From a virus: a stretch of 64,000 bases of DNA. The notes under the pieces were generated by a model, which was given only the letters and a program-made list of their open reading frames with translations, searched no databases and was not told where the DNA came from. Numbering within the stretch: the first letter of the stretch is position 1; each line of letters opens with the position of its first letter. The position numbers were made by a program, and so were the translations under genes. Location of the stretch: positions 1 to 64,000 of the IMG/VR virus record IMGVR_UViG_3300009509_000001, one strand, 5' to 3'. Of this stretch, positions 11,243-63,076 are shown in pieces.

Positions 11243-12631
11243 TCAGTATAGTTTTTCGTTACCTATAACATAGTCTGTTATCGTTGTTATGTCCAGCTCA
11301 TCAGCCTCTCCCACGCTCAACGGTTCAGCCTCGTCGGTACTCGCGATCGGCGACGTTTCTTCGTCAGCGAAAGCGAACGCGTTGAGGATGTAGGTTGTGC
11401 TCGCAGGCAACACCGCATCCAGATAACGAAGAAGCTTTATGGCTTCCGGATCGGGCAGTATTGCCAGGTCCGCCGTTATGAATATGACGCTGCTTGCAAG
11501 AAAGTTTGATCTGACGAGTTCGAATGGGTTGACCGTGAACGGTGCGTGCTGGTCGCCGATTATGGCTTCCTGCAGGTCGATCCCTCTGGCTGCCGCCTCG
11601 AGATCGGCCGTGGCCCAAAAGTATTCCACATCACTCGGGTCTCCCCCTATCGGGAATTTGTAATCGGTGACTTCGAGTTCGGCGTTTTCGAAGGAAAGCG
11701 CCTTTCCGCTCGGAGTCTCGATGAATGCATTGCTGAGCACGAGCTGCGGGAAATCTCCTGGGTCGATCTCTTCGCGGCCTCGCATGATATTGAAAGTGTT
11801 GAACAACCGGTCGCCGGTCTGTACCTGGTCACCGACGGCCACTATGGCGTTGCCGATTCCAGGGCATGAATGCAGCGTGTCGCCGACGGCCACCCAGGTG
11901 CGGTCGCCCTCGTCCCAGACTACGGTCACTTCGCCGTCGCCGTTCGCCACGTCGGTGTCGAGCAACGCACCCACGAACAAAGCCGTTCTGTAGGCCGTGC
12001 CACCCTCCTGGAGCAGATCGTAGATGGCGTTTAGTATGCGGCGGTAATACCGCGTTGACGGCGTGAGCATGCGGATCACGCGGCCGTAGTAGTCGGTCAA
12101 ATAGTTCGCGTCGTCCTCGGTGTGGACGAACCAGAGATCCACCAGTTTTATCTGGTTGTCGTTCTCGACCACGAGATGCTGCCGGAACGACTCCTCGAAC
12201 GGGTCGATGTACAGCCTCAGTTCATCGCCGACGATGTCGAAATGCGCGCCGCGGCTAAGGGCCAGATTGGGCTCCACCGGGTTGTCGATTATGGCCAGAC
12301 ATTTGTCGGTCGGTGCAGCCGCCACCCATATGGACGGGTTCGTCGTAAGCTCGTCGAGCTTGTGCCCCTGGTCCATAAGGTACGATCCGAGCGTCACGTA
12401 TTTTCGAGTGAGCTCTAGCTGGCTGAATCCGCCGTACTTCAATGAACGCGTCTTCGATACCGGAACATCAAATCTGTTGAGGAACTCCGGCAACTGCGCG
12501 ACGTCGCCCTGCAGCCGCTCGAACATGAAGTTCGTGGCCGTGAGCAGCGCTTTGTACAGGTCAGGGTCCTTCCAGGTGTTGTTCCAGAAAGATCCGAACA
12601 TTTGTTTCAGATCGTTTCTGCTTGTAATCAT
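11243..12631 (-). CDS. Baseplate wedge-type protein
   Basis: The 462-residue protein starts MITSRNDLKQMFGSFWNNTW, with an N-terminal helical region (YKALLTATNFMFERLQGDVA) typical of baseplate proteins that pair with BaseplateJ-like partners. The remainder is beta-rich. Its ATG overlaps the TGA of the BaseplateJ-like gene, so synthesis of the two is coupled. A wedge role is inferred from position directly after gp6/J and from fold-like composition; I see no diagnostic signature. Confidence 0.5.
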   Translation of the reverse strand: MITSRNDLKQMFGSFWNNTWKDPDLYKALLTATNFMFERLQGDVAQLPEFLNRFDVPVSKTRSLKYGGFSQLELTRKYVTLGSYLMDQGHKLDELTTNPSIWVAAAPTDKCLAIIDNPVEPNLALSRGAHFDIVGDELRLYIDPFEESFRQHLVVENDNQIKLVDLWFVHTEDDANYLTDYYGRVIRMLTPSTRYYRRILNAIYDLLQEGGTAYRTALFVGALLDTDVANGDGEVTVVWDEGDRTWVAVGDTLHSCPGIGNAIVAVGDQVQTGDRLFNTFNIMRGREEIDPGDFPQLVLSNAFIETPSGKALSFENAELEVTDYKFPIGGDPSDVEYFWATADLEAAARGIDLQEAIIGDQHAPFTVNPFELVRSNFLASSVIFITADLAILPDPEAIKLLRYLDAVLPASTTYILNAFAFADEETSPIASTDEAEPLSVGEADELDITTITDYVIGNEKLY

Positions 12632-14223
12632 GCTTTATCCCTCAGGTCTACTTTAATGAAGTCGGCGATACAGTAGAACATCGTGTTGCGCTCCGTGACC
12701 CAGCTGTAATCGGACTCCGGTACGTTTATTCTCCCCGTGATGCTCCGAACGGTCTCCACTGTGCCGTCCGGTTGCTGGAAATCTGCCTGAAGGGTCACCG
12801 GGAACTTCACATTGAGATCCGAGTTGACGCCTTCGACCGCGTTGACGACCAGTGACGCATCCAGGCCGTCTATTCCTATCTCGGTGGCGTTGATTGCGCT
12901 GGCGATCGCCGTCTGCAATGCCGTTACGGTCGTCGCGGTGTCGCCCGACTCGCGCTCGACGGTTACCGTGATGCTCACGGCCGCCGGGTTCGGGGCACGC
13001 ACGAGAACGTCATGAGCCTCGTTGCGGATGTCGCGTCGGTTGATGTATTCCTGAAGCGTCTGCAGGCCGGGAAGTCCACTCACGACGATCTCGAACACAG
13101 CGTCCGTATCGGCAATGTCGTTGAAAGTGAACAGAACCTGAGCGGTCTGGTAAACGCTGTAACGGGCGGTGTCGCCGCTGAATACGTGCGGGCCGCCGTC
13201 CTCTTCGGAATACCCGTAGATGACGGTTGCTTCATGCTCGTCGGTGACGATGCTGCTGGACTCAGGATGCTTGATCGACTCGATCCGGTAAAACCCGAGA
13301 CCCTGCTCGGCCGTGATGAAAAGCTGCCACGGGCTCGTCGAGGTCGCCCGGCTGGCCAGGACCTGGATCGTGCGCTCGATCGGAGCATCGGCGGTGCGGC
13401 ACCATGTGTCCACCCTGCCGCCGGCACTGATGCCGAAGACGTTGTCGCGGTCGCGGATGCACTCGGGATCGTTGATGCCGAAGCTGGCCTGGCTGTAGAT
13501 TGTTACGGCGCCGAAGTCACGGAACAGCGCCTCGAGGTGGGAGTTGCCGCTCGGAACCTTGGCCGTCATTCCGTTCAGGGCCTGGTCGAGAATCTCCTCG
13601 GTCGAATCCGGTTCGCGGCCGCCGGCGATGCTCGTCGCGGTTTCGATCCGGGTAACCTGGCTTGGACGCGTAGCGCTCGTCACCTGGACGCCGCGCGTCA
13701 CCGACTCGCCGGTGTAGTTCACGGTGCGAACAGGAACCAGGAACACGTACTCGTCACCCAGCTGCGTGAGCTGACGGTAAACGGTATCCTCGGTGTCGAC
13801 GTACTCGTCGATGTTCGGGACGCCGACGTAAGTAAGGTCGTTCGTCACCGCGAGGCCGCCCGCACTGTACTGCGATCCGCCGGGCAGATAGATGTTGCCG
13901 GCCTGCTTGGTGTAGACCGCAATGTCGCCAGTCCCGTAAAGGCCCGTATTCTGCGACACTCTGAAATTCGATGCAAGCGACAGGATGAGATCCTGATCGG
14001 GCGACTCGGCGATGCTGGCCAGATAAAGCGACATGTTCTCGCGCAGGGCCTCGATGTCGGCATCGTCGGCGGCGGCGCGGACGGCTGCCGGACGGATGAC
14101 CATCTCATACAGCATGCTGCCGTGATCCCATTCGTAGTCGGGATATTGCGTGCGGTATGCTTCAATAAAGAGCGCTTCGTATTCCTGAAGCACGTCGGTA
14201 TCGAGGCTTGCGAAATCTGTCAT
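12628..14223 (-). CDS. BaseplateJ/gp6-like baseplate wedge protein
   Basis: The 531-residue protein shows the usual order of BaseplateJ proteins. An N-terminal helical region (residues 1-70) leads to a beta domain (QNTGLYGTGDIAVYTKQ, YLPGGSQY). The characteristic segment SIAGGREPDSTEEILDQAL follows at about residue 205, and corresponds to the G.d.EsDe..R..l region of J/gp6 proteins. The C-terminus includes PAAVSITVTVERE, as in the strand-rich J core. Family members form the wedge dimers that encircle the hub and trigger sheath contraction. The gene follows a gp25-like gene, the usual order in contractile systems. RBS AGGAGG. Confidence 0.75.
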   Translation of the reverse strand: MTDFASLDTDVLQEYEALFIEAYRTQYPDYEWDHGSMLYEMVIRPAAVRAAADDADIEALRENMSLYLASIAESPDQDLILSLASNFRVSQNTGLYGTGDIAVYTKQAGNIYLPGGSQYSAGGLAVTNDLTYVGVPNIDEYVDTEDTVYRQLTQLGDEYVFLVPVRTVNYTGESVTRGVQVTSATRPSQVTRIETATSIAGGREPDSTEEILDQALNGMTAKVPSGNSHLEALFRDFGAVTIYSQASFGINDPECIRDRDNVFGISAGGRVDTWCRTADAPIERTIQVLASRATSTSPWQLFITAEQGLGFYRIESIKHPESSSIVTDEHEATVIYGYSEEDGGPHVFSGDTARYSVYQTAQVLFTFNDIADTDAVFEIVVSGLPGLQTLQEYINRRDIRNEAHDVLVRAPNPAAVSITVTVERESGDTATTVTALQTAIASAINATEIGIDGLDASLVVNAVEGVNSDLNVKFPVTLQADFQQPDGTVETVRSITGRINVPESDYSWVTERNTMFYCIADFIKVDLRDKA

Positions 14224-14232
14224 GGTATCCTC

Positions 14233-14637
14233 CTATAATTCGAAACTGGTGTAAAGCGGCTGCCCGGCTCTGGTCACGACTTCGACCTCGACGGTGAGCG
14301 AATCCTCGTTGATCACGATATTCGCGAAATTTATGAACTCGAGAACCTCGTCGTCGGGTATGGAGCGGCCGACCTGGTCGCTCTGAATGATCTCTTTGAT
14401 GTCGGCGGCTGCCAGATTCAGCTCGTTCCTTATGAGCTCTTCACCCTGTGCCAGGTTCGACGATCCGACGTCGCTGGCTATGCCGGTCGATGGGAAGCGG
14501 GCCACGTCGTTGGTGCTGCTGAGCAGCATGGTGACGACCTTCTGGGCCAGCACGGAGCGCCCGGTGCATGTCCCGGTCAGTTTCAACGGCATGACGCGCA
14601 CGCCCTCGCTGGAATCAAGAAAACTGATGTCCTTCAA
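14233..14637 (-). CDS. gp25-like baseplate wedge protein (TTG start)
   Basis: The 134-residue protein matches the size and position of gp25/lysozyme-fold wedge proteins, immediately before the J/gp6 gene. The segment VLAQKVVTMLLSSTNDVARF followed by PSTGI resembles the conserved Q.i...l.T..Ge....P.yG core of that family. The later part, NELNLAAADIKEII, also fits. I chose the TTG at 14637 because AAGGAGGG lies seven bases upstream and no better start exists. The TTG overlaps the upstream TGA. Assignment rests on context plus weak similarity. Confidence 0.5.
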   Translation of the reverse strand: MKDISFLDSSEGVRVMPLKLTGTCTGRSVLAQKVVTMLLSSTNDVARFPSTGIASDVGSSNLAQGEELIRNELNLAAADIKEIIQSDQVGRSIPDDEVLEFINFANIVINEDSLTVEVEVVTRAGQPLYTSFEL

Positions 14638-15014
14638 AGCTCAACCCTCCTTATTCCGGCGAGCAGGAACCCGTCCGTGTCGTTGGGGTCTTTCGCATCG
14701 CCTTCATGCAGCGCCCGCTTCATGTAGAGCAGGTACCCTCGGCACATTTTCATCCGGTCGGCGGTGGCGCTGTAGTTGTCGCGTGCCAGCGACATGAGCA
14801 GATTTCCCTGACGGCTTGCCGCCTGGATCTCCCGCCGGTTGTTGTTGTACGCGGCGTCGGCCATGGCATCGTTGGTCTCGTTGATAACCTTGTCGACCTG
14901 ATCGATGCCGAGGGCGTCCGGCGGCCTGAAGCCGTGATCCGGCTCAGTGCCGGTCATGGACTCGACCCGCTTGTCGAACGTCTGTTTCAGGCTGTCGTAT
15001 ACTGGCTCAAGCAT
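14634..15014 (-). CDS. Small helical protein between sigma factor and baseplate genes
   Basis: The 126-residue protein is mostly helical and charged (LKQTFDKRVESM, NNRREIQAASRQGN, MKMCRGYLLYMKRAL). Its ATG at 15014 lies inside the end of the sigma-factor gene, so the two are translated in a coupled way. It has no recognised domain. It may be a baseplate part, but its coupling to the sigma gene leaves room for a regulatory partner such as an anti-sigma or appropriator protein; that is speculation. Confidence 0.4.
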   Translation of the reverse strand: MLEPVYDSLKQTFDKRVESMTGTEPDHGFRPPDALGIDQVDKVINETNDAMADAAYNNNRREIQAASRQGNLLMSLARDNYSATADRMKMCRGYLLYMKRALHEGDAKDPNDTDGFLLAGIRRVEL

Positions 15015-15771
15015 TCAATTCCTGCCCTTCTTCGATCTTGGCGACGATCTTGTTGATGCGCTTGCTCACGGCCGGCGCGCTTATCTTCAGTCGTTGTGCG
15101 ATCTCGGCCTTCGGTATCTTCTCGACACCGCCGTAACCGGTACTCCACTCGTAAACCTTCTTGTCGATGGGATCGAGCTCTTCGTAAACATAATCCAGCC
15201 ACATGTCCTTGAGCTCACGGCCCTGCGACATCGGATCGCCCTTCTCGCTTTCGGTCGACGATTCCGTACGGCTGTTGCCGTATCTGTTGATGCGGTCGAT
15301 CTGGCGTATGCTGAAACCGCTGAGATCGGCAAGCTCCCGGAGGTTGGGTTCGCGGTCGTACTCCGCTTTGAACTCGTCGGCCTTCCGCTGCAGGTGCTGC
15401 TTCTCGGCGTGGACGTTTTCCGGGATGTGCATGACGCTCATGCGTTCCTGCCGGACCTGGGTAAGCTTGTGCAGACTGTTGCTGATGTGGGTGCGGATTC
15501 CGGCACCCTTCTGAGGGTCGTAGTTCTCGGCGGCCCGCAGCGCTATGAGCTGTGCCTGGGTTCGGTACTCATCCGGGTCCTTGCCGCCGAAGTTCTGCAG
15601 GGCCTTGTCGATCTCCGGCTGAAGCGCATTGAGGAACGGTTCGGCATTCTGCGGCGTCGGGGCACTCCGCCAGGTTTCGTAATAGTTGTCGACGTCGGTC
15701 TTGCTCGCAGGCGTCGGGCCGGCGGCCTTCACGTTGTCATTAGTTGCCCAGGGGCTGTTAGTCTTGTTCAT
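15007..15771 (-). CDS. Sigma-70-family RNA polymerase sigma factor
   Basis: The 254-residue protein carries the three core sigma regions. Region 2 (about 45-120) contains ENYDPQKGAGIRTHISNSL, matching the FDP..G..F.TYA core, and ends in MHIPENV, like the IRIP segment. Region 3 (about 120-165) has YDREPNLRELADLSGFS. Region 4 (about 190-250) has LDPIDKKVYEWS and a helix-turn-helix, KAEIAQRLKISAPAVSKRI. Region 1.1 is absent. The aromatic WW pair used for promoter melting in bacterial housekeeping sigmas is replaced by Asn-Ser, so promoter choice is probably different. It overlaps the hub gene before it (ATG/TGA), inside the baseplate operon. Sigma identity is strong; pairing with the phage polymerase is inferred. 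Confidence 0.85.
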   Translation of the reverse strand: MNKTNSPWATNDNVKAAGPTPASKTDVDNYYETWRSAPTPQNAEPFLNALQPEIDKALQNFGGKDPDEYRTQAQLIALRAAENYDPQKGAGIRTHISNSLHKLTQVRQERMSVMHIPENVHAEKQHLQRKADEFKAEYDREPNLRELADLSGFSIRQIDRINRYGNSRTESSTESEKGDPMSQGRELKDMWLDYVYEELDPIDKKVYEWSTGYGGVEKIPKAEIAQRLKISAPAVSKRINKIVAKIEEGQELNA

Positions 15772-17372
15772 TTATTCGTGGCCTCCTTGACCTTTGTCAG
15801 GTATGCATCCGGGTCGCCGCCAATATCCTTCTGCTCGGATCTGCTCATGACCCTGCCGCTTCGATCGATGATCGCGGCAAGCTTGTCCTTGACCGGGTCC
15901 TTGTCTATCGTATAAAGCGGATGCTTGTCCAGACCATAGGTGTCGTTCGTCGCTTCCGACCGTATGTGGGTGGTCGTAAGCTCGAGCGACGCGCTGCTGC
16001 CGCCGGCCGTGCTCGATGCCTTGAAGACGCCTCCGGCCAAAAAGCCGTAAAGCACCTCGTCGTCACCGGTTCCGACATGCGGCTGCTCTATCTTCATAAG
16101 ATAGCCCAACGCGTCCAAAAACTCAAGGCGATACCACGGCAGCTTGATGGTCAGGCTCACGCCTGAGTTCTTGACTTCGCTGAAGAACGCGCGGGCCAAC
16201 GCTTTGGCGACGGTTTCCGCCACCTCGATGTTCTTCTGCGCCTGGTCCGTCTTCAGCTTGGCCTTCTTGCTGTTCTTCAGAACGTCCGTGGTCGGTTCTT
16301 CGGCCGCGTCGGCGTTGTTCAGTTTATCCAGGAACGGGTTCAGCCAGTCCGGGATCGACACGACCTTGGAAATACCGGCATCCGGCATAGCCGACGTGTC
16401 CGGGTAGGACTGGAACTGCGGAACGCCGGCCGGGCCGTACAGGGTCGGCACGAATATGGCGTCCACTATGTCCTGCTCGGCCGAAAGAGTCTGGTTGTTG
16501 GAAAGAGCTATGATGTCGCCCCGCTTGACGGTGGCCACGGCCTTCTTGGCCCAGGGGAACGCCGGGATCGGGTCCACCTGACCGCCTGTCGTCGGAACCA
16601 TGTTGAAGAACATGGTGCTTTTCAGCATGGCCGAGAGCGCCGTGTACGGGTCGCTCTCGAGGGCATATTTCTTCAACCGCTGCAGAAGGCGGGATTCCGG
16701 GTGACTACGGGAATCCAGATAGATCTCCTTGATGATCTGCGTTTCGCGCCCGCGCTCGTTTATGTGGGTCGTCACCACGTCCGTGCCGAACCGTTTGTTC
16801 GACAGATGCTGGGTGAGTATGCTCAAAGCGTTGACGATGAAGGGGACGACGCCGTTGACGAGCCGTGGATCCTTTTCATACACGCCGATGTTCACGAAAA
16901 AATTGTCGGTGTTTATCCGCTGCAACAGAGCGCTGCGGCCGAAGGCGTCGATGGTGGCTGCCGCCGCCCCGTTGCCTTCATAGGCCGTTCCCCAGTACCG
17001 ATAGCCCTGGACCGTAATCGTGCGGAGCGTGCTCACAGCGCTCAGGCAGTTAACGACCGTGCCCGTATAGGACCCGGACACGTTGTTGGCGGCCGTCCGG
17101 CTGACGGTCGAAACGAACCCGGTAAACACGACGAGACCGTCCGTCGCGCCGTCGATCTTGATCCTGACGACGACCGACGTGAATGCGGAGTCGAATTTCT
17201 TCGGCGAGTTGAAGCGTTTCTTGCCGAATGGGTCGATGCCCTGTGCAAGCACGAGCTCGGCGCTCGAAGGCTGGTTTACGGCCATGCGCACGCGGACGCT
17301 GGTAAGCGGGTACGACGTGCCGCCGATAGTCGCTTCCAGTTCATCTATGCGTACGCTATGCAGTTTAGTCAT
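15768..17372 (-). CDS. Baseplate hub protein (gp27/late-control-D-like)
   Basis: The 534-residue protein starts with a beta-barrel-like segment (IGGTSYPLTSVRVRM, QPSSAELVLAQG) typical of gp27/gpD hub proteins, which form the trimeric ring above the spike. A middle region with helices (LLQRLKKYALESDPYTALSA) and a C-terminal barrel with a basic, charged tail follow. It lies between tube-associated genes and the wedge genes, the usual place of a hub. It overlaps the sigma gene at the 3' end. Assignment from fold-like pattern and order, not from a full signature. Confidence 0.6.
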   Translation of the reverse strand: MTKLHSVRIDELEATIGGTSYPLTSVRVRMAVNQPSSAELVLAQGIDPFGKKRFNSPKKFDSAFTSVVVRIKIDGATDGLVVFTGFVSTVSRTAANNVSGSYTGTVVNCLSAVSTLRTITVQGYRYWGTAYEGNGAAAATIDAFGRSALLQRINTDNFFVNIGVYEKDPRLVNGVVPFIVNALSILTQHLSNKRFGTDVVTTHINERGRETQIIKEIYLDSRSHPESRLLQRLKKYALESDPYTALSAMLKSTMFFNMVPTTGGQVDPIPAFPWAKKAVATVKRGDIIALSNNQTLSAEQDIVDAIFVPTLYGPAGVPQFQSYPDTSAMPDAGISKVVSIPDWLNPFLDKLNNADAAEEPTTDVLKNSKKAKLKTDQAQKNIEVAETVAKALARAFFSEVKNSGVSLTIKLPWYRLEFLDALGYLMKIEQPHVGTGDDEVLYGFLAGGVFKASSTAGGSSASLELTTTHIRSEATNDTYGLDKHPLYTIDKDPVKDKLAAIIDRSGRVMSRSEQKDIGGDPDAYLTKVKEATNK

Positions 17373-32776: not shown

Positions 32777-32855
32777 GTCGTCTCCTCGTCGCTTTGTGTT
32801 AATGGGGGCAACCCGAGCGGCTGCCTTTCATAATAAAATAGCATATATAGCGTAA
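32777..32855 (-). promoter_or_regulatory. AT-rich intergenic leader, candidate promoter and hairpin
   Basis: In this 79-bp gap the minus strand first shows GCTATATATGCTATTTTAT, strikingly AT-rich against its surroundings. An imperfect stem follows (GGCAGCCG with CGGGTTGCC), then TTAACACAAAG and the GAGGAG ribosome site of the next gene. This is the best candidate for an internal promoter ahead of the lipase cassette. No consensus for the phage polymerase is known, so the call is tentative. Confidence 0.35.
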
Positions 32856-33431
32856 TCAGTCAATATCCAGAACGCGGCCCGTATGCAGCGCAAACCTGCG
32901 CCTTCCGGCCGATTCCTTGAGGATCTGACGAAGAGCGGATTCGAATCCGCGCAAACTGGACATGGCCGTGACCATAAGCCTGTACGGCTTTTTCCCGGTT
33001 ATCGGCTCGGCGTCGGAATCCATCGCAGCGCTGTCCCGGTATCCGTCGAACAACGAGTACGCCTCATCGGTCGTGAAGTTCATGACAAGCGTCTTCTGTT
33101 TCCAGGCACCGGCCACCACGCCTTTTGCGGTAGTGACCTGCTTCTTTCGATACGAGTCGGACTTGTCCGCGGCCACGGCGCCGCTCAGCGGGCTGCCGTC
33201 GTACGTAAACATTTCGTATACGATGCGATCAATAAGATCCGAGAACAGGTTGACGTCGCGAAGTTCGATCTCGATCTGAACGGTATCCACATACACGGGG
33301 CTCTCCGGGGTGCACTTGCCGGACAACGTGAGAAGGCCCTTGAGCGGCCCGTCCATGGTGAACGTGGACGGTACCCAGATGGCGGTCGTGGCCCCGGTCG
33401 GAAGCTCTACCCGTCGCTGTATGCAAAGCAT
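32856..33431 (-). CDS. Small structural-block protein, paralogue of the next gene upstream
   Basis: The 191-residue protein is beta-rich with a basic C-terminus (ILKESAGRRRFALHTGRVL). The motif PITGKKPYRLMV recurs as PPVTGKKPIRVSI in the 201-residue gene just before it in transcription order, and both show a similar strand order after the motif. It starts three bases after the stop of that gene. Likely a tail-fibre accessory or chaperone; function unknown. Confidence 0.4.
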   Translation of the reverse strand: MLCIQRRVELPTGATTAIWVPSTFTMDGPLKGLLTLSGKCTPESPVYVDTVQIEIELRDVNLFSDLIDRIVYEMFTYDGSPLSGAVAADKSDSYRKKQVTTAKGVVAGAWKQKTLVMNFTTDEAYSLFDGYRDSAAMDSDAEPITGKKPYRLMVTAMSSLRGFESALRQILKESAGRRRFALHTGRVLDID

Positions 33432-47768: not shown

Positions 47769-48167
47769 TTAGCTAAGAGTTGTATTCCAGCTTTGTTCCC
47801 ATGCTTCGTCCGAAGCTGCCTTATTCTGCCCACCGGCGGCATCAGCCGCCTGTTTGGCGAGCGGAGCGGGCGTGCCAAGCGGACGAGGTGCGGAGTCGCT
47901 TTCGCGCTTCCCAAACTCGTCTGCGAGACGCTGCAGACTCAGCAATGCTTGATCCGGATTTTCCGGATACGACTGCACCAGCGTTTCAGCGGCCTCCTTT
48001 GACAGGAGATTACGAGCAACCAGCTTTTTGGCCGTTTGCTTGAGGACATCCTCACTGAAAGCGGGCTTTGCACTGGCCACTGCGGCCTTCTTGCGAAGGT
48101 CTGCGATGACTTCCTGCGACACTTCAACGTAGTCCACTACGTTTTCGAGCAGTTCCCGCGTGTTCAT
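47769..48167 (-). CDS. Helical head-block protein with K-x-A motifs
   Basis: The 132-residue protein is alpha-helical in its first 95 residues (MNTRELLENVVDYVEVSQEV, LKQTAKKLVARNLLSKEA), then Ala/Asp/Gly-rich. It contains the repeated head-block motif as LRKKAAVAS, LAKQAADA and NKAASDE. It sits between the scaffold-like and decoration genes. It may be a small scaffold or internal head protein that is cleaved during maturation. No family recognised. Confidence 0.45.
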   Translation of the reverse strand: MNTRELLENVVDYVEVSQEVIADLRKKAAVASAKPAFSEDVLKQTAKKLVARNLLSKEAAETLVQSYPENPDQALLSLQRLADEFGKRESDSAPRPLGTPAPLAKQAADAAGGQNKAASDEAWEQSWNTTLS

Positions 48168-48179
48168 GATGATGTCTCC

Positions 48180-49226
48180 TTACTTCGCTTGGATTGACTT
48201 CAGGGCTTCCAGAAGGGCGCCCTTACGGTCGGATGCGGTTTTCTCCAGAGGCGGCTCCTCGACGGGAACTTCCTCTTCGGCCATGGGCTCTTCACCCATA
48301 GCGGCTTCTTCCTGAAGCATCGCTACGATCTCTTCATCAGAAGCACCGGTTTCTGCCTTGATTTCCTCAACGGCGGCTTGCGCCTCCATGAGTTCCTCAG
48401 GCGTCACACCGGCAGCATCCAGTTGTGCTGCCAAGTCATCCAGGGCAGCCGTATCGTCTGGAGACAACTCGGCTTCCGGTTGGGCCTCCTCAGGAAGGAC
48501 AGCCTCCGGACTCTGGACGGCGGCGGCGTCGAGCAATGCGGCGGCTTCTTCCTCGGAAGGAGCCATGCCTGCGTCGACGACCTCGTTTATGTCCTCAGCT
48601 TTCTTCTGCAGGCCCCGTTGGAAACCGGCGTTGAAAGCCAGAAAACTTTCGAGAACTTCGGGATCGATGTCCTCTTCGGCCAATTTGCTGATGCCGGCTG
48701 CGGGCGCCTGGGACGCCTGCTTCTGGATCGGCTCGACCTGTTCAAACTTGTTGGTGGCGATGACTTGCAGAATCGTCGAAGCCAGCCGTTCCGCACGCGC
48801 AACCTTCGCGATCTCACTGGGAGCCGCGTGGGCGGTGGTAACGTCGGTGACGTTCACGTTGTCGCCTTCCATCTTGACGGACTCGTCCGCGTTGAGCTCT
48901 TTCGGGCTCTGCGGGTTGTCCTGCGGATGAGTGACTTCGTCCTCTTCCTTGACCTGGGCGCCGTCGTCGGTGGCCAGCTGAGCGTCACCCTTGGTGGCTC
49001 CCATTTCGCTGTCCTTGAGATCGGCTTCCATTTCCGCACCACGATCCTTTTCGGCAGCCAGCGTGTTGTCGGCGCTGACCTCTTTGATCTCGGTGCCCGT
49101 CTTCTTTGCCTTCAGCTCTTCAGCACCTTCCCCCTGGGGGTTGGTCTGGTCGGCGGCGGTCTTCTGCAGGTTGGCCTGGTCGAAGAAGTCGTCGACGAGT
49201 GAAGTGACCAAATCTTGTTGATTCAT
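48180..49226 (-). CDS. Acidic scaffold-like protein
   Basis: I start at the ATG of 49226 (MNQQDLVTSLVDDFFDQANL), which follows AAAGGA. The 348-residue product is strongly acidic and Ala-rich (EEEAAALLDAAAVQSPEA, EEPMAEEEVPVEEPPLE), with little predicted fold. It sits in the scaffold position between the candidate protease and the capsid gene. Four K-x-A sites (LQKTAADQ, IQKQASQA, LQKKAEDI, LEKTASDR) punctuate it, as expected for a core protein destroyed by the maturation protease. Confidence 0.6.
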   Translation of the reverse strand: MNQQDLVTSLVDDFFDQANLQKTAADQTNPQGEGAEELKAKKTGTEIKEVSADNTLAAEKDRGAEMEADLKDSEMGATKGDAQLATDDGAQVKEEDEVTHPQDNPQSPKELNADESVKMEGDNVNVTDVTTAHAAPSEIAKVARAERLASTILQVIATNKFEQVEPIQKQASQAPAAGISKLAEEDIDPEVLESFLAFNAGFQRGLQKKAEDINEVVDAGMAPSEEEAAALLDAAAVQSPEAVLPEEAQPEAELSPDDTAALDDLAAQLDAAGVTPEELMEAQAAVEEIKAETGASDEEIVAMLQEEAAMGEEPMAEEEVPVEEPPLEKTASDRKGALLEALKSIQAK

Positions 49227-49267
49227 TGTCACGGGTCCTTTTTGGTTTCCGTTTGGATTGCACCTAC

Positions 49268-50710
49268 CTATACTGTAGCACAAAGTTGGACTACAGACAA
49301 ACGCTGCTCGGTGTCGGTGAGACCATCAGCGAAGCTAAGCACGTAATTGGCGTACTCGCGCGCCAGGAGAACGGACGAGTCCGATGCCTCCGACGCCTTC
49401 TTCTGTATGACGACCTTACCGCCCACAGGGGCTCCATTCAGAACGGCCCTGATGACCCGAACCCGTACAGGTTCTTGTTCAATCGAACACTCGGGCTGCA
49501 TGGCCTTCGCGTCCGCCATCAGTGACCCGTCACAGGAACCGGCGGGCTCGTAGCTGCCGTCGTTCAGAACGTCGGAGAGACTGTCGGACTCCAGCAGATT
49601 GCCCAGGATTCCCGGGACGGCCTGCTTTACGTCGGCCATTTCGCCTTCGACGTCGCCGAACTTGTCACCCATGACCAGCTTTAGGAAAAGCTCCACCGGC
49701 AGGATGACCTTGCAGCGTTTGAGCGCGCCCATTACGGCGTGCGGGTCTTCGGCCGACATGCGGCCGATTGCATTGTCGTCGACGCATCCGAAGCCGGATT
49801 CCGGGGCAAACGCCTCGGTACCCATATCCGGGTCGTTCGACAGCAAAACTTCTTTTTCGATCTTGGCCAGCTTCTGGAGCAGGTTGTACCTGCGAGCCAG
49901 GTTACTACCGGCCGGGAAAGCGTTTACGGGCGGAGCCATGCCGTACATTTCGGCCAGGTGGGCTCCGGTGAGAACTCCGGCGGCGGCGACTTTTCGCAGC
50001 CCGAAGCAGATCTTCTCGGCGGGGCGTTCGACGCCGCTGATGTCATGGAAGAACGGGCGCGGCGTAAGCGCGCACACCTGCGTTCCGTCGCTGGCCAGCT
50101 GCATCGCGTACTTGTTGAGGTGGTCGCAATAGTCTTCGATCTTGCGGGCCTCGTTATGGCAGTAGCTGCAGATGTCCTCAGGGCAGTCGCTGCCCATGCT
50201 GAAAAAGATGGCTTCGTCATTGGCGACCTTCTGGAGCTCTTTGCGCCATTGCCGTTCATCGACGCCGATGATGAGCTCACCGCGATCCATCGGCAGGTTG
50301 TACGCCGCTTTGACGATATAGCCGCTGGGTTTTCCGTCTTCATGCTTGTTGATGTGCTGCTTGTAGACGGCGCCGTTGGCCATGAAAGTCTTGTCGTGGT
50401 AGTCGACCAGGCCGCCCTTGAGATGGATGGTGCGGCGTTCCGGGTCCTTCGGGTCCGGGCACGTATGGCTCGCGCTCTTGCGGATGAAGGCGTCACCGTT
50501 GTTGTTCGGCCCGTAGCGATCCCATGCGCCGACACTGATAAGATGGATGTACTGGTGCCCCGGCCGGCGCTCGAATTCCATGTCCTTGTCGAACAGTGCG
50601 GCACGCTTGTGCAGCCAGCCGTTGTCGATCCCGCGGCTGTGCAGCGGTACCAGGCTTGCCGTCGGCATGCCGAAGTCGAACGAATCCGGGAATATCAGCT
50701 TCCTGATCAC
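49268..50710 (-). CDS. Candidate prohead maturation protease
   Basis: The 480-residue protein starts at a GTG (50710) that overlaps the previous TGA and follows GGAGG. Its first 220 residues resemble head maturation proteases. A strand-rich start (GHQYIHLISVGAWDRYGP) leads to a His-containing strand (VYKQHINKHEDGKPSGYIV, about 112-130) and a Ser-containing strand (AIFFSMGSDCPEDIC, about 165-180). A CxxC-plus-CDH cluster follows. The C-terminal half is a Lys- and Glu-rich extension ending with K-x-A motifs (VIQKKASEASD). It precedes scaffold and capsid, the conserved gene order. Catalytic residues are proposed, not proven; a structural protein is the alternative. Confidence 0.5.
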   Translation of the reverse strand: MIRKLIFPDSFDFGMPTASLVPLHSRGIDNGWLHKRAALFDKDMEFERRPGHQYIHLISVGAWDRYGPNNNGDAFIRKSASHTCPDPKDPERRTIHLKGGLVDYHDKTFMANGAVYKQHINKHEDGKPSGYIVKAAYNLPMDRGELIIGVDERQWRKELQKVANDEAIFFSMGSDCPEDICSYCHNEARKIEDYCDHLNKYAMQLASDGTQVCALTPRPFFHDISGVERPAEKICFGLRKVAAAGVLTGAHLAEMYGMAPPVNAFPAGSNLARRYNLLQKLAKIEKEVLLSNDPDMGTEAFAPESGFGCVDDNAIGRMSAEDPHAVMGALKRCKVILPVELFLKLVMGDKFGDVEGEMADVKQAVPGILGNLLESDSLSDVLNDGSYEPAGSCDGSLMADAKAMQPECSIEQEPVRVRVIRAVLNGAPVGGKVVIQKKASEASDSSVLLAREYANYVLSFADGLTDTEQRLSVVQLCATV

Positions 50711-52386: not shown

Positions 52387-52389
52387 GCC

Positions 52390-55408: not shown

Positions 55409-55409
55409 G

Positions 55410-57233
55410 TCAGACCTCGTTTATGTTTACTAGCCTCGGGAAATAGGAAATGCTGTCCTTCTCGCTGACAGCTCCTCTGGTGGCGGCTCTGGTCACCGTT
55501 CGTTTAAGATTTTCACCCGCCAACTGCGTCATGAGATCGGGGTCCGTGCTCATGAAGTCCTGCGCACGGATGATCTCCGGTTCGAAAGGTGGCGGGCTCG
55601 CATGCGTCATAACCTGTTTTACACCGGCTGCCTGAAGCTTTCTGATCACGCGCGGCGTTATGCGCGTTCCAATGGTGTAATGCAGGTATGGCTGTTCTAA
55701 GTATAACTTATTCGCCGTAGTGACCGTTTTCAACCCAGCCCCCTCACGCGGCGTCCAATCGGCGGCCAACGTGTTGTAGTTTATCACGTCGTCCGGAAGG
55801 TGGCCGTTGATTCCCTCCGGGTCGGTGATGCGCACCTTGTTGACGAATTCACGGGCAAGGTACTCGAGATTCCGACGGTCGGTTCCGCTGTTCGAATTCT
55901 TCAGCAGGCTGCGAAGATGATTCAGGAAGTATACCCGGCCTTCGCCGATTCCCTTGTGCTTCACGAGCTCGGCGGCGTTGAGCATGCCGTTGGTCATCAT
56001 GTCGCCGGCCTCCACCGTGTCACCCTGTTTTACCGTGATGTCGTAGCCTTCGGGCACATAGTGCTTCTCACTGCCGACCCACAGAAACGTCCCGCCCTGG
56101 GCGGCCTTGGCGACTCTGGCGACCTTTCCGTCCACCTGGGACAGTACTGCGGCGCCAGGAAATTCCTTGGGCACCTGAAAAAACTTGTTGACGGCCTTGA
56201 AGCCGCTCTCCTGCTTCTGCGTGCTGCCGATCTCCCCGCCGGCATGCTTCGAGCTGATGGCGCTCTGGGTAAGCGGCTCGATGAAACTTCTGGCGCCCGT
56301 AATCCCCACGGTGTCGCCGATGTCCGGCAACGTCCCGGTTTCGCGCACTCCCGCGCACTTGGCGCAGATGCCCTCTTTGGCTTTGCAGTTCAGGGCGCTT
56401 CGGCCCACGATCTTCTTATCCTTGATCAGCGCGGAGTTCTCGTCGTCGATGATCGTCCCTGCCGGAAGACCCGCGATCGGCTTGGCCAGCACGGTTCCGA
56501 TGTTGTCCGGATCGTCGCCGTCCAGCTCGAGGCCCTCGGTCGTTCCGCAATCCTCCGTGGTCACCACGTCGCGATGACTCACGTTGGTGAGTTGCTTTCC
56601 GAAGTAACCGCTGTCGGCCGTCGCGAACTGCACGTCCACGTAACCTTTGCGCCCGCCGTGACTGGCGGCCCAGTAGGACAGTGGGCTCACGCCCTCGGCG
56701 TAGCCCTCTAAGTTTGGATAAGGCACGGGCCTTCCCTTGGAGTCGGCGCTTATGAGGTTGCCGAGCAGCAGCTGACGCAGCTGAAAGGCTTTACCGCGGC
56801 TCCCGCTGTTGATCTGGAGTGCGAACGCGCCATTGCGGTCGCTGACCGCCTTCAACAGGTCGTCGTCGATCGTGGCGCTGAAGTCCTGGACCATTTTGAG
56901 GACGGCCTGCTCCTTCTGCTCTGGGCTCAGCAGCGGGCTGTCATACGTCTGGTCGACCTTTTCCTTCAAGGCGTCGCGCCGTTGTTTGATCTCCGGCGGG
57001 ATCTTGAAGTCTTCAAGGCTAAGCGAGGCTTCGCGACCGTACAGCGACGCCACGTTGATGCCGATCGTGTTCAGCTTCTGGAGCGACTCGACATACTTGT
57101 CGGGGTCTTCCTGGGCCATGCGGGTGAACAGCTTGCCGACGGCACGCTTGTCCAACGCTCCCTGGAAGTCCTTGTAGCCTTCCGGTAGTGCTTCCCTGAC
57201 CTTTTCACGGCCCAATGTGGTTACTGCGCTCAT
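55410..57233 (-). CDS. DNA-directed RNA polymerase beta-prime subunit, C-terminal half
   Basis: The 607-residue protein covers the catalytic C-terminal half of beta-prime. The bridge-helix start is NSGSRGKAFQLRQL (about 140-155). The trigger-loop region is ASHGGRKGYVDVQFATADSG with its His (about 190). The second zinc site has all four Cys (TEDCGTTEG near 227; NCKAKEGICAKC at 280-291). Then follows GDTVGITGARSFIEPLTQSA, equal to the GE.VGiiAAQSIGEPGTQ block. Large lineage-specific insertions of bacterial proteins are missing, so it is shorter. The N-terminal half with the Mg-binding loop is encoded in the beta fusion gene, two genes upstream. Confidence 0.9.
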   Translation of the reverse strand: MSAVTTLGREKVREALPEGYKDFQGALDKRAVGKLFTRMAQEDPDKYVESLQKLNTIGINVASLYGREASLSLEDFKIPPEIKQRRDALKEKVDQTYDSPLLSPEQKEQAVLKMVQDFSATIDDDLLKAVSDRNGAFALQINSGSRGKAFQLRQLLLGNLISADSKGRPVPYPNLEGYAEGVSPLSYWAASHGGRKGYVDVQFATADSGYFGKQLTNVSHRDVVTTEDCGTTEGLELDGDDPDNIGTVLAKPIAGLPAGTIIDDENSALIKDKKIVGRSALNCKAKEGICAKCAGVRETGTLPDIGDTVGITGARSFIEPLTQSAISSKHAGGEIGSTQKQESGFKAVNKFFQVPKEFPGAAVLSQVDGKVARVAKAAQGGTFLWVGSEKHYVPEGYDITVKQGDTVEAGDMMTNGMLNAAELVKHKGIGEGRVYFLNHLRSLLKNSNSGTDRRNLEYLAREFVNKVRITDPEGINGHLPDDVINYNTLAADWTPREGAGLKTVTTANKLYLEQPYLHYTIGTRITPRVIRKLQAAGVKQVMTHASPPPFEPEIIRAQDFMSTDPDLMTQLAGENLKRTVTRAATRGAVSEKDSISYFPRLVNINEV

Positions 57234-57237
57234 TTAT

Positions 57238-57942: not shown

Positions 57943-57953
57943 TGTCGGCCTCC

Positions 57954-58685: not shown

Positions 58686-58716
58686 GATTCCTCCTGAGTT
58701 TCTATTTAATATAGTC

Positions 58717-61700
58717 TTATGCCTTGCTTTTTTCCAATATGACGATCGGCGTGTCGATGTCGATCTCCCCGGCGTTGAACGCTTCCTGCGCTTCGCGCAT
58801 GGTTCTGAACGTACGCTTGGCCTGGCCCTTGCCCGGCCGCGTGGCCAGATACAGCCCCTGTACGAACTGCTGGCGCGGTACGTAGTGGGCCGTGAAGTCA
58901 CGCGGACTCAGGAGGTTAGCTTCGGGCGTCATCTTGGCCCTGGCCTCCTCGACCGCCTCTTTGCTGACGGGAGCGTAATAGGTCACGCTGTCTCCGTCGA
59001 AATCCATACCGTAAGGTTCGACGATGCTGGGGCTCACCTGCACCGACTTGCCTTTGACGAGCACCGGTTCGAACGCCATGACTCCGTACTTGTGCAGCGT
59101 CGGTGCCCGGTTCACGATGACCGGGCGTTCCTTGACCGCTTCGTACAGGAAGCTCTCGGCCTTCTGATCGCGATCCTTCACGCGCTTGATGGCGTCGGTC
59201 GGCGCATAACCGCTCTTCACCATGTTGCGGACGACGAACGGCTCGAAGACGTCCCAGGCATCCTTGATCGGAATGCCGATCTTGTTAAGGGGCATGGACG
59301 GGTTCGGCGTCACGACGCCGCTTCCGGCCAGGTTCATGGCCGTACCGAGCACGCGGCGGTGATAGCCACCGTACTTGGCGCTCCCCTTTCCGAGTGCCCA
59401 CTTGAGCAGGCCCTGGACGTTCTTTTCCTGGAGCTTGGCGTCGTCGGGATCATACATCCCGGTGAGTGCCTTGTAGGTGTTGTACATCTGTTTGCGGGCG
59501 CCCTTTATACTGCTGTCGGGCAGTCGCTCGCGAGCCGAACGCATGTCGTCGCGGGCGAACACCAGGCTGCGGTACAGCATATTGGCATCGGCCGTGATGT
59601 TCGTGCCGTCGAGCTGCGTAACCGGGCGGAACTTCGGCGGGAGCACCGGGACACGCTCCATCATGAAGTCTTTCGGGTGAACGTCCTGTTCCTCCATGCT
59701 CTTCAGGAACCGGTAACGCTTGAGCGCCTTGTCCTTCTTGCTGGGCGTACTTCCCTTCAGATCCTCCATGGCGCCCTTGACCGCGGCCTTCATGTCGATC
59801 TTGGCCAGCGCCGCCTGTATGGCGGCTCCGCCGGTCTTGTCGCCGATGGCCTCTTCGCCGCTCATGACGGCGTTGAATTTCTTCTGCGTCATTCCGAGTA
59901 CGCTGGCGAGCGCAGGCTCCATGACCGGGTTCGGTAGTGGCTCGTCGAGCTGAATGTAACCCCAGCCGGTGCCGTCGTCTCCGAAAATCTTCGGATCGAA
60001 CAGGCCCCCGTCGATCGGCTTCATGGTCTTCTGGTCGAAGGTGCGGGCGACCCCGAGCTCATGGCCTTTGGCCAGATCCTTGGCCTGGCGGTCAGTCATT
60101 CCGAAAAAGTTGATGCGGTCGGGCTGCTCATCGACGTTGATGCCGGCTCCCTTCAGATGCTCGTAGAACTTCTTGTTGACGATGGGGGTGCTCGGCATCT
60201 TGGGCACGCGGCCCATGCGGAAGTCACGCCAGAACTCGTCGTTGGCCTGGCCGCGGATGAGCTTCGCGTCCTTGAGTACCTTCATGGCTCCGTGGCTCAC
60301 CAGCGCCGACGTGTGAAGTCCCCCGATGAACTTGGAACCATGCTTGCCGCCTCTGAGCGGCGTGTCCTCACCGGAGGACGGGCCGACTCCACGGCCTTTG
60401 CCTTTGTCCTCGGCCATATGCATCAGTCTGTAGTAGAAGGCTTCGCCTGTGAGGACTTCGGGTATCTTGCGGCCGGTCACGGGGTCATATAGATCTTCGT
60501 TGGCGCTCAGGCCGGCCTGCTTCAGTTTTTCCTCGTACTTATCAATCATCTTTTCGTCGAATCCTTCGACGATTTCGGGCTTCCCGGTCTTCCTGGCCAG
60601 CTTTCCGGCAAGCGCTTCGGTGACCTGCATCGGATTGACGCGGCTGATTATGCCGAGCGGGCTCAGCAGCACATCGTATGGGTTGCCGTCCTTGTCCAGC
60701 GGCATCTCGTTGTCGGGAAGAATGTTCACCACGCCCTTGGCTGCATATCGGCTGCTCATTTTGTCGCCGTTGCGCATGGGCACGTTGGCCCTGGTGTAAA
60801 CCGTGGCGTGCTTGTCGCCTTTGTCGGCTTCCACGACCTTGCCTTCGTAATCGTGATCCCAGGTTTCGACCACGGCCGTGCGGGTCTTGCGTCCCAGGCT
60901 GCCGGGCTTGGCCTCGTTGTGCCTGACGGCCACGATCATCGGGTCGCCCTTGCGCAACACGGTGCCGGGCTTCACGATCCCCTGGTCGGTAAGCGTGTCC
61001 ATCTGGTCCTTGGTGAATCGGCCGGAGAACTTGCCGATAAATTCCTTCTTGTCAAAAGCGGTGTTGGTGGAGACGGGTACGCGCTGCTTGTACATCTTCT
61101 CGGCGGCGAGCTTCTTGGCTGCCGATTCGGAGATCGTGATCGCGTCTTCGTATGCGTGACCCTTCCAGTTCATGTAGGCTACGCGCAGATTGCGGCCCTG
61201 GGCTGCGACGCCCTTGTCGTCCGTGTAGTTGGTCGTGGCCAGAACCTGGTTGGGTTTGACCTCGTCGCCGACCTTAACCTGCGGAATGCTGCGCAGGTAC
61301 CCCTTCTGGTTGAACGGGTGATTGTTGTACAGATCGTATGTCTCGGTGCCTTCGGGTCCGCGGATGGTGATGCTGTCGGCGTCCATGGCTGCAACAGTCC
61401 CCTTGATCGTGGACTTCCGCACACCCATCATCTGCCCGATGTCCTCTTCGGCCGTGCTGGTGCCCTGGCGACTGCGTACGAGTGGAGCTTCACGCTGCGC
61501 AAGCGGCATCGCCTGGACGCCGTACTTGCCACCCATCTGCAGGCGGTTGGACATGATCCCGCTCTTCCCGGGGACGCTGTTGGAGCCCTTGCTGAACATG
61601 TTGGAGTCGTCCATGATGTAGTAGTCCACGTCCTGCTTGGGGACGATCTTCACGCCCTTGCTTCCGTGGATGGCCGGAACGAACTTTCCCTTGGCATCGA

Positions 61701-63075
61701 ACTCCTTCTTGGTCGCCACGCGGCTGCGGGCGGCCGTCAGACTGTCGACCCATTCTTCCTTGCCGGTCTTGGCATTGAACATTTTGGTGTAAAGCCGGCC
61801 ATCGTCGCCCTTTCGGACACCGTTGGCCAGGTACAGATCCAAACCGACGCGTAGAGATTCCACGCTGCGGACGGGGTCGACGAAGCCGGCAAAGCTGTCC
61901 TGTACCGCCCGAGTCTCGCTGGGAGCCGTGCGTACACCGCTGATCCCACCTTCGCCAATGCGGCTGATCTTCGTGCTCAGGTCGATGGCTGAAAAGGGAC
62001 TGCTCCCATCGATATAACTCGCATGACGTGACTCGTTGAATATTGCATCGACGTGTTTATTCATGGGAGCAGTCGGTATATCATCGAAATTACCGCGACG
62101 CGATATGCGCCACAGCAGATTCCGCGCTATGCCCCCACCGTCACGCACGATGCGCTCGGCGAAATAATCGGCGGGTCCGTCCACCTTCTGAAATTCAAGG
62201 CTGTCTCGATAATCCTCCCCGGCTTCTCCCCGGCTAAGCTTCAGGACCTTGCCGGCCGATTCCAGAAGAGTCTCGGGCGTGAGCCTCGGGTGTGGGCGTC
62301 CAAGCGTAATCTCGGTGGATACCGGGTCCAGCTCTGTACGCTGGAGCTTCTCGATGAGCTCGTCGTATTGGGCGGACTTGTCCTGCGCCGTTTTCGGTAT
62401 TCCACCCGTAAACCGCTGCGTCGGCTGCTGGATGTCGCTGGCACGTCGGTTGACGTCCAGGAGCTCGGCGCCCCACTGTTGTTTGATCTGATCGTCGGTC
62501 ATCCCCTGCCGTTTCAGGATCGTGTAAAGTTTGTAACCCCTTGTTCCCTGCTTGAGCCGGAATATGCCGGTCTTCGGGTCGAGCTCGATCTTGAACTGGC
62601 CGCCGGTACCCTGCTTCGGGTTTACGTGGGCCTCGAAAAAGCCGTTCTCCTTCTTGCGCGTGTATACGCCCGGCGTCAGTCTGAACATGTAGTTGATCGA
62701 CTGTTCGCTGCCGTTGCGGATGAAGGTTCCCCGTTCCGTCATCCACGGCACGTTCATGAGCACGCGCGGATTGCTCGTGGTGGTTTCCCCGGTCTCCTTG
62801 TTCGTTAGCTTCCAGCGACCGCGCAGCTTGGCGGTCACGCTGCCGTTCTGAAGCACGGCCTGCTTCTCGTCCCGGAGCCTGGGTTTGTATTCGTCGTAAT
62901 CGACACCGTCGACATCGAGCACGAAGCGTTCGTTCTCCAGCGGGAAACGCTGTCTGAACGCGCTTTTCGTGTTGTCGAGGATCCGTTGGCGCACCTGGGC
63001 GTAGTCCGTCGGGCTGTATGGCTTCGACTTTGCACCGACAACCGGATCCAGTAGACGGGTCTGGAAGTCCTGCAT
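58717..63075 (-). CDS. RNA polymerase beta subunit fused to the N-terminal half of beta-prime
   Basis: The 1,452-residue protein first follows beta. MTERGTFIRNGSEQSINYMF (about 110-130) matches the TFI.NG.ErVi.sQL.RSPG block. SSPFSAIDLSTKISRIGEGG (about 357) matches the rifampicin-pocket region. GDKMSSRYAAKG (about 769-780) keeps both catalytic Lys. GPSSGEDTPLRGGKHGSKFI matches the beta C-terminal block. The beta-prime part starts near residue 1000 (GLFDPKIFGDDGTGWGYIQL) and reaches RPVIVNRAPTLHKYGVMAF and the Mg-binding GMDFDGDSVTYY (about 1355). It ends at LLSPRDFTAHYVPRQQFVQG, just before the bridge helix. The first beta-prime zinc ribbon is missing. All active-site residues visible to me are kept, so an active enzyme is expected. 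No alpha or omega gene is seen. Confidence 0.9.
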   Translation of the reverse strand: MQDFQTRLLDPVVGAKSKPYSPTDYAQVRQRILDNTKSAFRQRFPLENERFVLDVDGVDYDEYKPRLRDEKQAVLQNGSVTAKLRGRWKLTNKETGETTTSNPRVLMNVPWMTERGTFIRNGSEQSINYMFRLTPGVYTRKKENGFFEAHVNPKQGTGGQFKIELDPKTGIFRLKQGTRGYKLYTILKRQGMTDDQIKQQWGAELLDVNRRASDIQQPTQRFTGGIPKTAQDKSAQYDELIEKLQRTELDPVSTEITLGRPHPRLTPETLLESAGKVLKLSRGEAGEDYRDSLEFQKVDGPADYFAERIVRDGGGIARNLLWRISRRGNFDDIPTAPMNKHVDAIFNESRHASYIDGSSPFSAIDLSTKISRIGEGGISGVRTAPSETRAVQDSFAGFVDPVRSVESLRVGLDLYLANGVRKGDDGRLYTKMFNAKTGKEEWVDSLTAARSRVATKKEFDAKGKFVPAIHGSKGVKIVPKQDVDYYIMDDSNMFSKGSNSVPGKSGIMSNRLQMGGKYGVQAMPLAQREAPLVRSRQGTSTAEEDIGQMMGVRKSTIKGTVAAMDADSITIRGPEGTETYDLYNNHPFNQKGYLRSIPQVKVGDEVKPNQVLATTNYTDDKGVAAQGRNLRVAYMNWKGHAYEDAITISESAAKKLAAEKMYKQRVPVSTNTAFDKKEFIGKFSGRFTKDQMDTLTDQGIVKPGTVLRKGDPMIVAVRHNEAKPGSLGRKTRTAVVETWDHDYEGKVVEADKGDKHATVYTRANVPMRNGDKMSSRYAAKGVVNILPDNEMPLDKDGNPYDVLLSPLGIISRVNPMQVTEALAGKLARKTGKPEIVEGFDEKMIDKYEEKLKQAGLSANEDLYDPVTGRKIPEVLTGEAFYYRLMHMAEDKGKGRGVGPSSGEDTPLRGGKHGSKFIGGLHTSALVSHGAMKVLKDAKLIRGQANDEFWRDFRMGRVPKMPSTPIVNKKFYEHLKGAGINVDEQPDRINFFGMTDRQAKDLAKGHELGVARTFDQKTMKPIDGGLFDPKIFGDDGTGWGYIQLDEPLPNPVMEPALASVLGMTQKKFNAVMSGEEAIGDKTGGAAIQAALAKIDMKAAVKGAMEDLKGSTPSKKDKALKRYRFLKSMEEQDVHPKDFMMERVPVLPPKFRPVTQLDGTNITADANMLYRSLVFARDDMRSARERLPDSSIKGARKQMYNTYKALTGMYDPDDAKLQEKNVQGLLKWALGKGSAKYGGYHRRVLGTAMNLAGSGVVTPNPSMPLNKIGIPIKDAWDVFEPFVVRNMVKSGYAPTDAIKRVKDRDQKAESFLYEAVKERPVIVNRAPTLHKYGVMAFEPVLVKGKSVQVSPSIVEPYGMDFDGDSVTYYAPVSKEAVEEARAKMTPEANLLSPRDFTAHYVPRQQFVQGLYLATRPGKGQAKRTFRTMREAQEAFNAGEIDIDTPIVILEKSKA

Positions 63076-63076
63076 A

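Follow-up and report, generated by a model that had tools for sequence, protein, structure and literature searches.

Sigma factors are the proteins that tell RNA polymerase where to start. In the DNA analysed here, a stretch of 64,000 nucleotides (the window; positions 1 to 64,000 of IMG/VR virus record IMGVR_UViG_3300009509_000001), a predicted gene for such a factor lies among baseplate genes, and the same virus encodes its own multisubunit RNA polymerase (RNAP). This raises the question of whether the protein is a genuine sigma factor, which polymerase it serves and whether it travels in the virion.

Identification of a sigma-70-family factor

The gene and the regions assigned to its product are as follows:

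15007..15771, minus strand: sigma-70-family factor, 254 aa (PHROG and NCBIfam matches, family profile, AF2 model, Foldseek)
15439..15702, minus strand: sigma region 2, residues 24-111 (AF2 helices; profile alignment to SigA)
15475..15480, minus strand: Asn98-Ser99, replacing the WW melting pair (RpoS alignment)
15271..15438, minus strand: sigma region 3, residues 112-167 (Pfam Sigma70_r3; family members)
15013..15231, minus strand: sigma region 4 with helix-turn-helix (HTH), residues 181-253 (Pfam Sigma70_r4; AF2 helices)

A single-sequence search matched the open reading frame to PHROG 351 'RNA polymerase sigma factor' (2.6e-9), and in NCBIfam it matched SigB/F/G (1.7e-6) and sigma70-ECF (1.5e-5). 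The first viral scan with the window sigma as a single sequence revealed no homologues, and alignments were needed to reach the relatives. The resulting 39-member family profile was colinear with SigA, RpoS and RpoD over regions 2-4, with bacterial SigA as the best match (6e-21). The Pfam search proposed in the preliminary description was successful in part: in the window protein searched alone, Sigma70_r3 (0.0024) and Sigma70_r4 (0.0074) were recovered weakly, both below gathering, and region 2 was not found, while among the 39 family members region 3 was matched in 34 (best 7.8e-11), region 2 in seven and region 4 in three.

In the AF2 model of the protein (mean pLDDT 81.6), each of regions 2, 3 and 4 was resolved as helices, with a flexible linker at residues 168-183. 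The top Foldseek matches of this model were sigma chains in RNAP structures, except for three integrative cross-linking models, the labels of which are hard to interpret. As the domains are not fixed relative to one another, whole-chain TM scores were low, with a maximum of 0.40. From profiles and model together, we conclude that the open reading frame truly encodes a member of the sigma-70 family and that this member possesses regions 2, 3 and 4, the last with its HTH, which bears out what had been claimed for the 254-residue product. It has regions 2-4 in the same order as bacterial SigB/F/G, FliA, RpoS and SigA, and SigB/F/G and SigA/RpoS are among the best family-level matches; it differs from them in that identity is very low and the phage family is devoid of region 1 and of the WW pair.

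The replacement of the WW melting pair by Asn-Ser, noted in the preliminary description, is real, as WW aligns with Asn98-Ser99 in the RpoS alignment. WW was absent in all aligned members, and its loss is, on this alignment, a trait of the whole phage sigma family. Alternative and ECF sigmas are commonly without the pair as well. As proof of a new promoter logic, the change was therefore rejected; the replacement, genuine as it is, does not in itself constitute a novelty.

Genomic context of the sigma gene

The neighbours of the sigma gene, all on the same strand, were assigned as follows:

15768..17372, minus strand: hub-like tail protein, upstream of sigma (iterative HMM link to Arash gp8)
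15768..15771, minus strand: ATGA overlap of the hub-gene stop and the sigma start (sequence)
14634..15014, minus strand: 126-aa small gene directly downstream of sigma (slot conserved in relatives)
14233..14637, minus strand: gp25-like baseplate wedge gene (position and family HMM across relatives)
12628..14223, minus strand: gp6/baseplate J-like wedge gene (Pfam Baseplate_J 0.023 and family comparison)

Besides the ATGA overlap with the hub gene, sigma overlaps the downstream 126-aa gene by 8 bp, and these overlaps with both flanking genes make translational coupling of hub and sigma within the tail-gene run probable. Iterative HMM comparison connected the hub-like protein with gp8 of Salmonella phage Arash, a structural cell wall hydrolase whose gene has the same relative position. 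The slot after sigma is taken by an open reading frame of about 110-145 aa in most relatives; the 126-aa product of the window had no match in Pfam, PHROG or PDB. The gp25- and gp6-like neighbours are very divergent themselves, the gp25-like gene by itself giving no Pfam match. At 28 loci, a count that takes in some identical or nearly identical phages, sigma was found upstream of baseplate genes, within a few genes of a gp25-like gene and usually of a gp6-like gene too. The description of the gene as part of a baseplate operon linked to hub and wedge genes holds.

The RNA polymerase of the window phage

The polymerase genes and their relevant elements are as follows:

58717..63075, minus strand: fusion of RNAP beta and the beta' N-terminal part, 1452 aa (NCBIfam rpoB 9e-70; beta/beta' models)
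55410..57233, minus strand: C-terminal part of RNAP beta', 607 aa (NCBIfam rpoC 8e-63)
58990..59013, minus strand: catalytic motif YGMDFDGD, three Asp kept (alignment)
59464..59586, minus strand: beta' clamp helices, retained; canonical dock of sigma region 2 (Thermus beta' and family alignments)
60871..60918, minus strand: beta flap tip, shortened; canonical dock of sigma region 4 (alignments; low-confidence model)

Compared with PDB, the fusion protein matched both beta (7e-56) and beta' (1e-54). The split of the RNAP into beta-beta'N and beta'C is common to the window phage, Arash and Vibrio phage D69, and the best matches of the window RNAP were those to Arash and Vibrio D69 (2e-59), AR9/PBS1 being far weaker (5e-11) and phiKZ absent among the matches listed. 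The enzyme, with bacterial-like beta/beta' and the catalytic three-Asp motif, can be assigned to the mReC kind on its best matches and shared architecture. In the mReC phages, which are tailed, beta and beta' are likewise bacterial-like and form a branch separate from cellular RNAP (Weinheimer and Aylward 2020, PMC7481178); sigma is not mentioned in that paper. The preliminary description had labelled the polymerase as being of the phiKZ type, which is wrong: such an RNAP would be closest to phiKZ/AR9 and come without a recognisable sigma, whereas the matches and the architecture point to Arash/D69 and a sigma is present. In the record of 194,576 bases, which is possibly incomplete, neither an alpha subunit (RNA_pol_L) nor a second sigma was found.

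Concerning the docking sites, the two clamp helices also appeared in the AF2 model of an RNAP piece, and no helix was predicted for the flap tip; this model was poor (pLDDT 54.5) and was used for flap and clamp-helix hints only. The family alignment shows a shortened flap tip for the window phage and a longer one for the Arash group, and the use of the -35 contact may thus differ between clades.

Several features of the polymerase genes were recorded besides. In contigs L010/L011, the beta of the closest relative has an in-frame insertion of about 360 residues at the GDKM site (CYDEETEVLT ... SGN-S), intein-like in look; the window beta is uninterrupted. In the relatives G010, G016, G018, G019 and G028, beta' lies within a single giant frame of 1985 to 3259 residues, which suggests that beta and beta' are fused in one polypeptide. 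Short K-[TKQ]-A stretches, such as YKTAGDE and EKTASDR, lie close to the ends of many proteins of the capsid/RNAP cluster (window 47769-63985) and may conceivably be a tag for processing or packaging.

Co-inheritance of sigma and polymerase

Co-occurrence was assessed in two directions, by searching relatives from the sigma alignment for beta' and relatives found through beta' for sigma, a few phages being in both sets. Among records of 150 kb or more, each of the 12 positive for sigma also contained beta', and 17 of the 19 positive for RNAP contained sigma; one of the two misses is a record of just 150 kb, and the other, of 309 kb, has a weak beta' match (1e-6). GenBank isolates with a good sigma match were Arash and the Vibrio phages D69, D181 and D148, and the same four gave the best RNAP matches. 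No match to the sigma family at E<=1 was obtained in AR9, phiKZ, T4, Rhizobium phage Y65 or Cobetia phage Carin-5, and Yersinia phage GN1 gave a short match only (0.004). As judged by these searches, sigma and the bacterial-type RNAP are inherited together, sigma being a near-constant companion. Several relatives also gave small matches to beta' close to sigma, and these were discarded; they comprise the cysteine-rich segment only and appear, judged from it, to be zinc-ribbon proteins and not RNAP.

T4 gp55 and SPO1 gp28 redirect the host RNAP core to phage promoters. T4 gp55 and the cyanophage sigmas, which are phage-encoded sigma-70-family factors like that of the window, act on host RNAP. 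The main rival reading is that the window sigma likewise redirects the host core to phage promoters and the phage RNAP works with other factors. This established behaviour of phage sigmas of other lineages speaks in its favour, as does the shortened flap tip of the phage beta, the usual dock of region 4. We nevertheless regard it as improbable, if the strongest competitor, given the strict co-occurrence of sigma with the phage RNAP, the clamp helices kept in the phage core and the absence of the family from T4, a user of host RNAP; at E<=1, no sequence relationship of the window family to T4 gp55 was found.

According to reviews, RNAP-bearing jumbo phages are without recognisable sigma homologues (PMC7598289; PMC13282480), and sigma-bearing jumbo phages rely on host RNAP (2026 review PMC13282480); the earlier remark that a full sigma is unusual beside a phage multisubunit RNAP agrees with both. 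The role proposed for the window sigma resembles that of phiKZ gp68 and AR9 gp226, which act in a sigma-like manner on the phage multisubunit RNAP. These proteins differ in having no recognisable sequence similarity to sigma and a partial sigma-like structure only, and they belong to the non-virion enzyme (PMC9209446); neither the phiKZ nor the AR9 genome has a match to the window family.

Presence of sigma in Arash virions

The preliminary description hinted that the sigma could be packaged, which is supported by the virion proteome of a relative, Arash, and not of the window phage itself. Arash Gp10 (OQ632216.1; PMC10585845) is of the same family, at about 20% identity to the window sigma, and occupies the same slot (sigma, 129-aa gene, gp25, gp6) in a phage with the same RNAP architecture; Arash differs from the window phage by a second sigma, GGTATAAG promoters and the longer flap tip. 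In the published mass spectrometry of Arash virions, beta was the most detected protein with 3516 spectra, beta' had 1210, and Gp10 was represented by 467 spectra and 24 unique peptides at 100% coverage (PMC10585845). One such phage with sigma in the virion is, therefore, already known (Arash, 2023), and the family context was not given in that paper (PMC10585845). Its authors list 116 virion proteins and consider carry-over of abundant proteins possible (PMC10585845); the second Arash sigma, Gp196, is absent from the published list.

Our calculation of spectra per residue gave 2.31 for beta, 2.00 for beta', 2.00 for sigma and 1.51 for the portal, with lower values for gp6 (0.98) and ribonucleotide reductase (0.87). 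In unique peptides per residue, Gp10 ranked highest of the 58 proteins compared (58/116). The near-equal values suggest that sigma, beta and beta' are present in roughly equal numbers per Arash particle, spectral counts being a rough measure, and this argues further against a sigma devoted to the host core. For the window phage, known from sequence alone, packaging is probable by homology and synteny with Arash.

Presence in virions and a fixed place in the baseplate cluster would also be expected of a baseplate or tail component that has retained a sigma fold and has nothing to do with transcription. This we hold to be very improbable: all sigma regions, including the HTH of region 4, are kept in a fast-evolving family, sigma tracks RNAP across records, and the per-residue spectra of the Arash sigma match those of beta/beta' (2.0-2.3) and not that of gp6.

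The helicase gene adjoining beta' in Arash, gp217 (141261-142679), gave 2.43 spectra per residue and 38 unique peptides in virions, and its product may be packaged with the polymerase.

Promoter motifs

In Arash, the motif is built around the core GGTATAAG, with tAAnGTGtAA on its downstream side and a weak AT-rich element on its upstream side, and 37 of its 38 sites are on the non-structural strand. A GGTATAAG-like motif was found in seven relatives, mostly on the non-structural strand; the copies in D69 are mostly GTTATAAG, and the variant in G028 is GGGATAAG. For G[GT]TATAA ahead of predicted genes, the numbers of copies on the opposite versus the sigma strand were 17:0 for Arash, 14:0 for D69, 13:0 for G031, 10:0 for G009, 8:2 for G034 and 6:1 for G016. 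This bias is partly genome layout, since in some of these genomes the majority of upstream regions (in Arash, 89 of 113) are on the opposite strand, and the enrichment in Arash (17 observed versus 1.5 expected) is the firmer point. The last position of the phage motif differs from that of the host TATAAT. It appears probable that the element recognised in the relatives is GGTATAAG, with its variants, before non-structural genes.

The GGTATAAG motif was not found in the window phage or its clade (G003, G008, G029), and the sigma 2.4-3.0 segment is common to this clade and differs from that of the motif-positive clades. This covariation fits sigma as the reader of the motif, but it comes down to roughly one evolutionary change.

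A promoter search of the window genome revealed Shine-Dalgarno words, host-like sites and an CATTAACACAAAG leader, and no convincing phage-specific promoter; an EM motif search was uninformative. The leader element recurs near Shine-Dalgarno sites (window 22291, 32803, 46206 and elsewhere in the record). Seven host-like TTGAC-N16-18-TAnnnT sites were located upstream of genes, versus 0.1 expected, one of them being:

32835..32863, minus strand: candidate host-like promoter TTGACT-N17-TATTTT, TG before the -10 (consensus match only)

This candidate precedes the run of structural genes to which sigma belongs. With these seven sites, host RNAP may transcribe part of the window phage, a point in favour of a host-directed sigma, and host-like promoters were seen in most members of the phage group.

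The same promoters would suit a sigma that serves both cores at different times, for instance in the injected phage holoenzyme early and with the host core later, a further promoter class being left to a second sigma of the Arash gp196 kind. Arash does have an additional sigma gene with a region 2 (gp196, OQ632216 120656-121693), a weak second match occurs in D69 (133370-133729), and both are candidates for such a role. D69 and G031 also have two strand-specific motif classes, the second, on the structural strand, being TAAAATA in D69 (8/10, L173-L182) and CTATACT in G031 (6/6, L202-L211), which are possible late promoters. The single sigma of the window record, possibly incomplete as it is, speaks against this arrangement, to which we attach a small likelihood.

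The sole structural-strand GGTATAAG-type site scored in Arash (L017 11588-11602) is found immediately ahead of the small gene that comes before sigma, and 6/6 close Arash-like phages have kept it. It was discarded as evidence, since it is without the other motif elements and may reflect ordinary conservation.

Proposed mechanism and implications

Our preferred reading, which we consider likely, is that the window sigma confers promoter specificity on the bacterial-type RNAP that the phage itself encodes, and that it is packaged in the virion and injected with the DNA. It is directly supported by the sigma fold and domains, the co-inheritance with RNAP, the conserved slot and the published virion presence in Arash, and we infer from it that sigma would bind the phage core, be packaged in the window phage, be injected and define the promoter that is read. 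Encoded within the baseplate gene run, sigma would be built into virions together with beta and beta', and the holoenzyme, entering with the DNA, could begin to transcribe phage genes without delay. In this complex, the retained clamp helices would receive region 2, which would melt a -10-like element, and region 4 would reach upstream DNA as well as the beta flap with its shortened tip.

A broader proposal, for which we claim a little less than even confidence, is that in mReC phages beta, beta' and a true sigma-70 form one inheritance unit, an injected holoenzyme without alpha or omega, whose sigma is a product of the tail/baseplate gene programme and recognises a -10 element specific to the lineage, which would be GGTATAAG for most members and another sequence for the window clade. 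In the open-access literature, no paper was found describing the lineage-wide pairing of sigma and RNAP, the baseplate slot or the GGTATAAG motif.

In reviews up to 2026, large phages fall into two classes, one with a multisubunit RNAP and no sigma, the other with sigma and no RNAP; the window lineage has both, inherited together. It would represent a natural minimal holoenzyme of the bacterial type, in which no alpha subunit was found and which is amenable to recombinant production, and the strand-specific GGTATAAG motif renders the promoter question directly testable. The lineage also offers a test of a deep common ancestry of phage RNAPs and sigma factors. By analogy with Arash, the phages of this lineage probably inject a ready-made transcription machine and do not only borrow that of the host, a possible route to a phage transcription start that is independent of the host.
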